A DNA stretch of 64,000 nt, from positions 309,259-373,258 of the forward strand of contig LCFW01000002.1 in assembly GCA_000999315.1 (NCBI GenBank), given 5' to 3'. This document shows positions 25,272-63,931 of the stretch, in pieces. The translations under genes were made by a program, and so were the position numbers. Below the pieces are notes generated by a model, which was not told the DNA's origin, did not search any database, and worked only from the letters and a program-made list of their open reading frames with translations. How positions within the stretch are numbered: position 1 is the stretch's first letter; the number at the start of each line of letters is the position of its first letter. The stretch is from Candidatus Peregrinibacteria bacterium GW2011_GWF2_43_17. Its GTDB lineage: Bacteria; Patescibacteriota; Gracilibacteria; UBA1369; UBA12470.

Positions 25272-25276
25272 GACTA

Positions 25277-25512
25277 GGCAGTGTTCACATATATTTTTTA
25301 CGATGGTTGGCGCATAACATGTCTGGATTCACGACACGAGGAGTGCGCTGTACCTAAAAGGTACAGAAACGACGAGTAACGGGAAGCTACATATTTTGTG
25401 TATTTCTGCGTTACTCCTCCTTGTAATACTTTCCAGTATCACTTCGTCGTCGTGTCTTGAACTGCACAAAATCTGTAGCTTCCATCTGCAAAAAATATAT
25501 GTGAACACTGCC
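25277..25512. mobile_element. MITE-like element, copy 1 (236 bp)
   Basis: Perfect 23-bp TIRs GGCAGTGTTCACATATATTTTTT (25277-25299) and AAAAAATATATGTGAACACTGCC (25490-25512), flanked by TA on both sides. Contains the conserved core shared with copy 2. Confidence 0.88.
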
Positions 25513-25575
25513 TAAAACTTGCAAAATATAGTACTATTAAGGTACTTTTATTCAGGTCAATTAAACGAAACAAAA

Positions 25576-51562: not shown

Positions 51563-52384
51563 ATGGGAAACCATTTCAATGCAATTTGGGAAAGAAACAT
51601 AGTCCGATCCAGTCAAAAATATTTTGAAGCACGTGGCGCACCTCTACACGCAATATCGACAAAGAAATTAGAAAAACATATCCGGGCAAGAACAGTTCTT
51701 TTAAGCATACGTCTCTCAACCTACTTAGCCGCTTATGGAATAATCGGAAAATTAATTGAAGATACAAGACAAAGAAAATGTAGCGATCTAATGAGTGGAG
51801 ACGCAATTACAATTTTGGCATTACTGAAAGAAGGCATATTAGACGCAGCAGATCTCATCGACCTTAGATACGCAGACCATGTAAGAAACATCGACAAACC
51901 AAATGCACCAGGTCTTGTTGAAGATTTTGGACTTGGAAAAGCCGTAACATTAAAACCACATCCTCTCCAAAACCCAGGTCTCGAACTACAACCTATCGCC
52001 ACGCTATTACACAGCGGATTCACATTGGACCGCAAACTTGTTATCCCAATCGAAATATCTTTAAGAGGAAAATGTTCGAACGATCCACGTACAATGAAAT
52101 TTAATCACTGTGGCACAAAAGACCCTCTAACATTTGAAAAAATATTAGAAATCATCGCACGAAACGGCGCAAAACAATTAATACTTGCCGACAGCCCTTG
52201 GGAAGGACACGCAACAACCAACGAAACCGAATTAAAAAGACATCTAGAAACAACATCAGCATCTTCAGGATGGGTGATCAAATCTTGGTACTGGCTTGAA
52301 GATACAAAAACATACGTCGCCCAATTAGGGCCTGTGCACACTATTGGTTCCGAATTGGTTAAAGAGAAAATTATTCAGATTTGA
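51563..52384 (+). CDS. Hypothetical protein whose 3' end lies inside a MITE-like element
   Basis: 273-aa ORF. The last ~19 codons (GPVHTIGSELVKEKIIQI*) read into the TIR starting at 52328. Confidence 0.55.
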   Translation: MGNHFNAIWERNIVRSSQKYFEARGAPLHAISTKKLEKHIRARTVLLSIRLSTYLAAYGIIGKLIEDTRQRKCSDLMSGDAITILALLKEGILDAADLIDLRYADHVRNIDKPNAPGLVEDFGLGKAVTLKPHPLQNPGLELQPIATLLHSGFTLDRKLVIPIEISLRGKCSNDPRTMKFNHCGTKDPLTFEKILEIIARNGAKQLILADSPWEGHATTNETELKRHLETTSASSGWVIKSWYWLEDTKTYVAQLGPVHTIGSELVKEKIIQI

Positions 52385-52739
52385 GGCGCGAGGAGCGCTC
52401 AGACCGTCCGACAATGAAATTGGAGGACGGGCCAAAACAAGCGAAGGATTGACGCGTAAAATGTTATTCTGTGCAACAGATAGCAAAAAGCATTGCGAAC
52501 AATGCGTTTTCTTAAAAAAGTTCATTCTCGGACAGCCTGGAGTGACGAGCAACGAAAAAGATGGATGATTTTCTCTTTAACCCTCCGGGAATAACCTGCC
52601 TATCGGCAGACAGGGCAGATTTTAAGCATTTCTGCGTCACTCCTCCTTGTAATACTTTCCAGTATCACTTCGTCGTCGTTTCTTGAACTGCTATAATATC
52701 TGCGATATTCCAATCGAAACCAATAGTGTGCACAGGCCC
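52328..52739. mobile_element. MITE-like element, copy 2 (412 bp)
   Basis: Perfect 22-bp TIRs GGGCCTGTGCACACTATTGGTT (52328-52349) and AACCAATAGTGTGCACAGGCCC (52718-52739), TA on both flanks. Internal 15-bp IR GGTTAAAGAGAAAAT (52357-52371) / ATTTTCTCTTTAACC (52568-52582). Confidence 0.9.
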
Positions 52740-52782
52740 TAGGAATGGTAGAACCCGAAGAATCAACATTATAAGCCGGCAA

Positions 52783-63755: not shown

Positions 63756-63778
63756 ACTATGTGTCTATTAGTTTATTA

Positions 63779-63901
63779 GGGCCTGTGCACACTATTGGTT
63801 TCGATTGGAATATCGCAGATATTATAGCAGTTCAAGGAACGACGACGAAGTGATACTGGAAAGCCCCGCTAAGCGGGGCGAGAAGGAGTGACGCAGAAAT
63901 G
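63779..63901. mobile_element. MITE-like element, copy 3 (end only; second TIR not seen in the window)
   Basis: Starts after TA with GGGCCTGTGCACACTATTGGTTTCGATTGGAATATCGCAGATATTATAGCAGTTCAAG, near-identical to the reverse complement of the copy 2 right end. Core is interrupted by CCCCGCTAAGCGGGG. Confidence 0.82.
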
Positions 63902-63931
63902 CTAAACTTCCGCCAGCTTACGCAGGCGGGG

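Follow-up and report, generated by a model that had tools for sequence, protein, structure and literature searches.

The attC sites of integrons are recognised as folded single strands and have covarying stems with few fixed bases, and the element analysed in this work appears to be built in the same way. REP-like palindromes rank among the most frequent repeats in bacteria; those of the CGTC type apparently have no dedicated transposase, and no other enzyme is known to mobilise them (PMC3733652). REPINs consist of two inverted REP units that form hairpins and are dispersed outside genes, and compensatory changes were reported in these hairpins (PMC3116915). The MITEs with TA ends (ERIC/IRU, Correia/NEMIS and RUP) are non-coding palindromes with terminal inverted repeats and a TA at both ends, and they can lengthen reading frames (PMC2229807). 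In the window, that is, the whole stretch of 64,000 nucleotides analysed, whose right end is the contig end, three copies of a TA-flanked palindromic element were found that resembles all of these systems in part. In our judgement it is probably a non-autonomous mobile element, present in Peregrinibacteria and in a few further Patescibacteria, REPIN-like in its interior and with MITE-style ends.

The complete element is about 270 bp long and consists, in order, of TA, a terminal inverted repeat (P1), a hairpin (P2), an inverted hairpin (P3), the terminal inverted repeat again and TA. The computed fold of each strand is a three-way junction (z about −12 to −13). P2 and P3 are homologous and inverted, as R1, a model built from 12 diverse P3 hairpins, also matches P2 in most elements, at a distance of about 4 nt and on the opposite strand; in these the dispersed unit is a pair of inverted hairpin units, as in a REPIN. 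The inverted pair is not universal, since single-hairpin relatives occur, and one stem arm is missing in many copies. Copy 1 (25275–25514, plus strand, 240 bp) is bounded by TA and has the A-type terminal repeat TAGGCAGTGTTCACATATATTTTTT. Its two P1 arms of 25 nt, at 25275–25299 and 25490–25514 on the plus strand, are 100% complementary by inverted-repeat detection, and copies 1 and 2 are each edged by TAGG.../...CCTA inverted repeats. Hairpin P2 of copy 1 (25304–25380, plus; R1 match window 25304–25407, minus) is truncated. Alignment with L054, L064 and L117 showed that it retains the 5' stem strand and the apex, in which GAGGAG (25338–25343) and CGACGAG (25370–25376) flank an apical stem-loop at 25348–25366, and that the 3' stem strand is deleted relative to the copies of G012, a genome of the same order. 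Hairpin P3 (25381–25484) has its functional fold on the minus strand, as judged from the R1 match of 109.9 bits and the pair counts, with arms at about 25381–25401 and 25464–25483 and an inner inverted repeat of 25 nt (25382–25406/25459–25483, 88% complementary).

The original prediction was centred on a 64-nt core at 25402–25465. This core is only the apex of P3, the tip of one hairpin in a larger element; on the minus strand it reads CGACGACGAAG, apical stem-loop, CAAGGAGGAGT, with predicted tandem G·A pairs. Its near-identity with 52628–52691 was reproduced by BLASTN (96.9% identity across 64 nt: 62 positions identical and two different), and the minus-strand hairpin GTGATACT-GGAA-AGTATTAC, followed by AAGGAGGAG, is present as described, although one of its eight pairs is G·T and only seven are Watson–Crick. 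The GNRA-type loop proposed for it is not kept, as CGAA, TGAA, GGTA, GATA or TATA loops occur in other copies. The single-strand folds of the two regions are far more stable than those of dinucleotide shuffles (z −10.4 and −8.1).

Copy 2 (52326–52741, plus, 416 bp) is an A2-type element with the terminal repeat TAGGGCCTGTGCACACTATTGGTTYCGA. Its P1 arms form a 28-nt inverted repeat on the plus strand, the left arm (52326–52353) lying within the 3' end of the open reading frame 51563–52384 and the right arm at 52714–52741. The arms of its P2 (52357–52582, plus), at 52357–52382 and 52557–52582, are 85% complementary, and comparison with the empty copies L044 and L055 showed that the apical stem is replaced by a second, nested palindromic repeat, element B (52400–52539, plus, about 140 bp), of which the genome has about 15 copies. 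Hairpin P3 (52588–52711, minus; R1 match 52613–52711) carries the second copy of the core (52628–52691, minus) as its apex and, by comparison with L055, a small extra palindrome (about 52595–52615) in the 5' stem strand. Copy 3 (63777–63921, minus), at the contig end, is a decayed A2-type element with terminal repeat and P3, identified from the R1 match at 63807–63921, the terminal inverted repeat at G000:C2:373035 and the sequence of L050; foreign palindromic sequence takes the place of one stem arm, and complementarity is gone.

The host genome, a 1.2-Mb Patescibacteria assembly from the Peregrinibacteria (G000), holds more than 20 copies in two subfamilies, A and A2. Several of them lie at contig ends, and the contig breaks at copies were probably caused by the repeats. 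G012, which belongs to a different family, contains more than 10 near-identical copies of 272 bp each with the complete architecture. In these copies, P2 has the stem TGGTTGGACGG.../...CCGTCCAACC and an apex of TTCAAGGCGCGAGGAGCGC, stem-loop and AAGCGACGAGCAACA-AGAA, and P3 has the stem GGAAGAGACATATTTTGTCC.../...GAACAAAATATG-CTCTTCC and, on the minus strand, an apex of TTCAAGGAACGACGACGAGAG, stem-loop and CGAGAAGGAGTGACGCAGAA, related to the P2 apex. Within the order, 11 of 89 genomes gave an R1 match to P3, as did 5 of 382 sampled phylum-wide, among them G130, G253 and G272 from other parts of the phylum. Further copies were found in one Nealsonbacteria MAG and in one MAG of an unclassified bacterium, and Candidatus Peregrinibacteria MAGs are among the carriers. 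The element was absent from phage and plasmid records, an exact-pattern scan of viral contigs was also empty, and a search of the literature for Peregrinibacteria or Patescibacteria repeats found no papers. In other Patescibacteria (L120, L121, L124, L127, L130 and L108) the outer arms look like the 3' ends of tRNAs (GGTTCGAATCC plus the acceptor strand), and ends of tRNA genes may have been taken up by the element; ARAGORN called no tRNA at the tRNA-like outer arms of G272, G253 and the Nealsonbacteria copy.

The apex of each hairpin bears the fixed module CGACGA(A)G opposite CGAGGAG, which is predicted to form two tandem G·A/A·G steps with C-G pairs between them. On the minus strand of the core, CGACGACGAAG and CRAGGAGGAGT, on the two sides of the apical stem, would pair as repeats of C-G, G·A and A·G in the register predicted by inspection. 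Of the 26 distinct apices, 22–24 retain the inner C-G, A·G, G·A and C-G positions, and the outermost G·A module has changed to Watson–Crick pairs (CG, TA, GC) in several families of this set. Because such purine-purine pairing is predicted to be possible on one strand per hairpin only, plus for P2 and minus for P3, each DNA strand would bear one purine-purine hairpin.

The stems covary. In the 12 diverse P3 hairpins both sides changed in 22 of 25 pairs, and 86% of the aligned cells pair, compared with 37–51% when the partners were slid by 1–3 columns. In 16 elements, complementarity to the own arm was 0.73–0.79, against 0.44–0.50 when the arms came from different elements and about 0.42 after shuffling, and the own arm was the best match in 14/16 (P1), 16/16 (P2) and 12/16 (P3) cases. 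Thus, the stem sequences shift between genomes yet keep pairing, and the folded shape is maintained, probably as DNA. In this respect the original prediction is supported: it had described arms that differ between the two copies and are complementary inside each, as inverted-repeat detection also found. Its inference of selection on DNA or RNA structure is supported in part: a structure is maintained, as the arms diverge across copies and genomes and still pair, but this may reflect selection or self-correction of the palindrome, and RNA is disfavoured by the counts of G·T (19) and A·C (26) in some 790 aligned stem positions and by the location of the homologous hairpins on opposite strands. 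Its contrast of a fixed core with changing arms is right for the arms and too absolute for the core, whose apical stem varies and is sometimes swapped wholesale for other palindromes, and whose outer part covaries too. Copies lacking arm complementarity, which the prediction had named as counter-evidence, do exist (63807–63921 in the window, L041, L047, L052 and L058), as a mobile element is expected to leave dead copies.

The rarity of G·T and the inverted hairpin pair favour a function at the DNA level or self-correction of the palindrome during replication. According to the latter explanation, the element is a mobile palindrome whose arm complementarity comes from intra- or interstrand template switching at quasi-palindromes, which copies arm onto arm and erases mismatches. 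We regard this as a serious rival, although of rather low probability. Near-identical G012 copies bear differing P3 arms, each matched by its partner in the same copy (GAGACATA, GAGTCATA, GAGATGTA and GAGACGTA), and both the A·A or C·A intermediates in the G012 copies L117, L103 and L113 and the equal rarity of G·T and A·C fit template switching. Moreover, hairpin-tip deletions are common (palindromes of 40–57 bp; tip variants of element B), so palindrome-specific replication errors do happen. However, template switching leaves unexplained the fixed apical module, the near-constant stem length and geometry across families and classes, and the switch of the outer G·A module to Watson–Crick pairs. 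Since palindrome correction does not account for the conserved apex, we favour selection on the fold with help from replicative correction.

Identical-ended copies occupy unrelated sites in both G000 and G012, and together with the nested repeats they make dispersal of the element evident. The terminal inverted repeats have TA at both tips, as in MITEs, and no flanking repeat longer than TA was found. At L041 and L083, two convergent genes both stop at the tip TAG, which would fit a duplicated TA at overlapping stop codons; a putative duplication of TA is suggested by the tips and by the genes whose stop codon is the TAG of the element. An alternative is a conventional MITE, in which a DDE transposase would read nothing but the terminal repeat and the interior hairpins would be passengers. 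The TA ends and terminal inverted repeats are those of ERIC, Correia and RUP (PMC2229807), and P1-only deletion derivatives occur in G000 and G012; between families, however, the terminal repeats are more variable than the hairpin apices, the opposite of a classical MITE, and the IS630-type DDE_3 domain is absent from both genomes, so we consider this explanation unlikely. The P1-only mini-palindromes (40–57 bp; L043 865–921, L168 3018–3057, L174, L179 and L180) probably arose by deletion of the hairpins.

Y1_Tnp (PF01797) was likewise absent from G000 and G012, and DDE_Tnp_1 was absent from G012, the most loaded genome, which is 94% complete, so the absence is not absolute. The sole DDE_Tnp_1 match in G000 is an IS-like gene (L325 996–2280, G000:C14) with 19-bp ends (CTAAAAAGGCACGAATTTT) unrelated to the element. 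The search for an autonomous IS revealed no transposase between matching element ends, and the unpaired ends in G012, considered as possible autonomous copies, were accounted for by solo arms, by mini-palindromes of 40 bp or by a 5-kb stretch that holds housekeeping genes. We hypothesize that the mobilising enzyme would recognise folded single-stranded DNA or an extruded cruciform and insert the element at TA, which would be repeated at both ends; Y1 and IS630 transposases were not found in the most loaded genomes. Recognition of folded DNA would let the stems drift freely while pairing and keep the apex fixed.

Element B (52400–52539 in the window) also occurs at G000 L041, L042, L049, L056, L061, L063 and L072. 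About half of its copies occupy the apical stem of a hairpin, either one of this family or one from a related single-hairpin repeat, and some replace the stem exactly. By analogy with IS elements that target REPs (PMC1525189), element B may target extruded hairpins. In L044 (1002–1075), L059 (826–899) and L050 the apical stem of P3 is swapped for GCCCCGCTTAGCGGGGC, with breakpoints as in the B insertions, i.e., one palindrome was replaced by another. The related single-hairpin repeats (G023 L145, L150, L155 and L159; G042 L151 and L156; G012 L116 5222–5330 and L180 578–685) have the ends TAGGAACCTCTGAAAAA and a core of CTCCTCGC, a CGTATC..GATACG stem and GCTTCGTCGTCG, and the one in L155 adjoins an RNase P RNA gene. 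The A2 element lengthens two unrelated reading frames, at the 3' end of 51563–52384 in the window and in L055, with nearly the same C-terminal peptide (HTIGSELVKE-I-QI), like the ERIC or RPE gene fusions. The element is probably also the cause of several breaks between contigs and of lengthened gene ends in the carrier MAGs.

That the hairpins are structured RNA (acting in 3'-end stability, attenuation or as a small RNA), with covariation from selection on RNA, is improbable: the RNA fold is stable (z −13.2) and copies adjoin genes, but pairs of the G·U type make up about 2.5% of all pairs, no commoner than A·C and low for an RNA under selection, P2 and P3 lie on opposite strands, and the flanks show no clear 3'-end bias (42 3' vs 35 5'). 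As the bias is weak, a 3'-end or terminator role was likewise rejected, and no Rfam 15 family matched at gathering or E-value thresholds.

The P2 apex GCGAGGAGCG...AGCGACGAGCAA matches the core of a widespread REP, YGTC-ATTGCGAGGAG...CGACGAAGCAAT-CYC. At least 119 IMG/VR stretches contain the pattern ATTGCGAGGAG-N4-18-CGACGAAGCAAT, and in most of them it reads YGTC-ATTGCGAGGAGCNNAGCGACGAAGCAAT-CYC. In 8 of 9 families the score of the P2 apex against the REP core was reached by 0–8 of 5000 shuffles; for the A-type copy of G000 the similarity is weaker (239/5000). In P3 the two strands of the REP core are exchanged and the resemblance falls below that of P2, so any common descent of P3 with the REPs is tentative. 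In the order, the canonical REP occurs only in G023, G042 and G035, all three of which also have R1 elements; with 11 carriers in 89 genomes, this 3/3 co-occurrence has a chance of about 0.0015. In G023 the canonical REP forms inverted dimers with variable, self-complementary apical stems. Judged by its tag, first A-T pairs and tail, which agree with the textual description of these REPs, the canonical repeat appears to belong to the CGTC-type REPs (PMC3733652). The YGTC tag present in the canonical REP was not found directly before the P2 or P3 apex.

The apex fold is the same across Patescibacteria classes while stems and ends change completely, which would reveal the bases needed by the mobilising machinery. 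The main interest of the element is that it ties an orphan REP superfamily to a larger element whose covariation marks the parts of the fold that matter. More tentatively, it is possible that ultra-small bacteria harbour a class of mobile elements that move as a folded three-way-junction strand, read by an enzyme outside Y1 and IS630 via a tandem G·A apex module common to the orphan CGTC-type REPs. If so, identifying this enzyme would also account for the spread of the CGTC REPs. The genomes that offer themselves for a search for the mobilising machinery are G012, G023, G042 and G035.

Compared with the known systems, the element differs from integron attC sites in being dispersed at TA with terminal repeats. 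It shares with the CGTC REPs the core of the P2 apex, the inverted pairs, the variable apical stem and the lack of a known dedicated transposase (PMC3733652). However, its core tips covarying stems of 18–20 bp, two per element, and long terminal inverted repeats, ending in TA, frame the whole, which lacks the YGTC tag and the CCA/CTC tail. Two inverted REP units as hairpins dispersed outside genes make it similar to the REPINs (PMC3116915), which are shorter, however, and are built from GTAG REPs with a RAYT (Y1) transposase, whereas PF01797 is absent from G000 and G012. With the TA-end MITEs it shares the non-coding palindrome, the TA at both ends, the terminal inverted repeats and the ability to lengthen reading frames (PMC2229807), but it is larger, its interior holds two homologous hairpins, its apex is conserved and its ends vary, and no matching IS was found. 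The element is of the REP/MITE kind, with full membership in none of the tested families.
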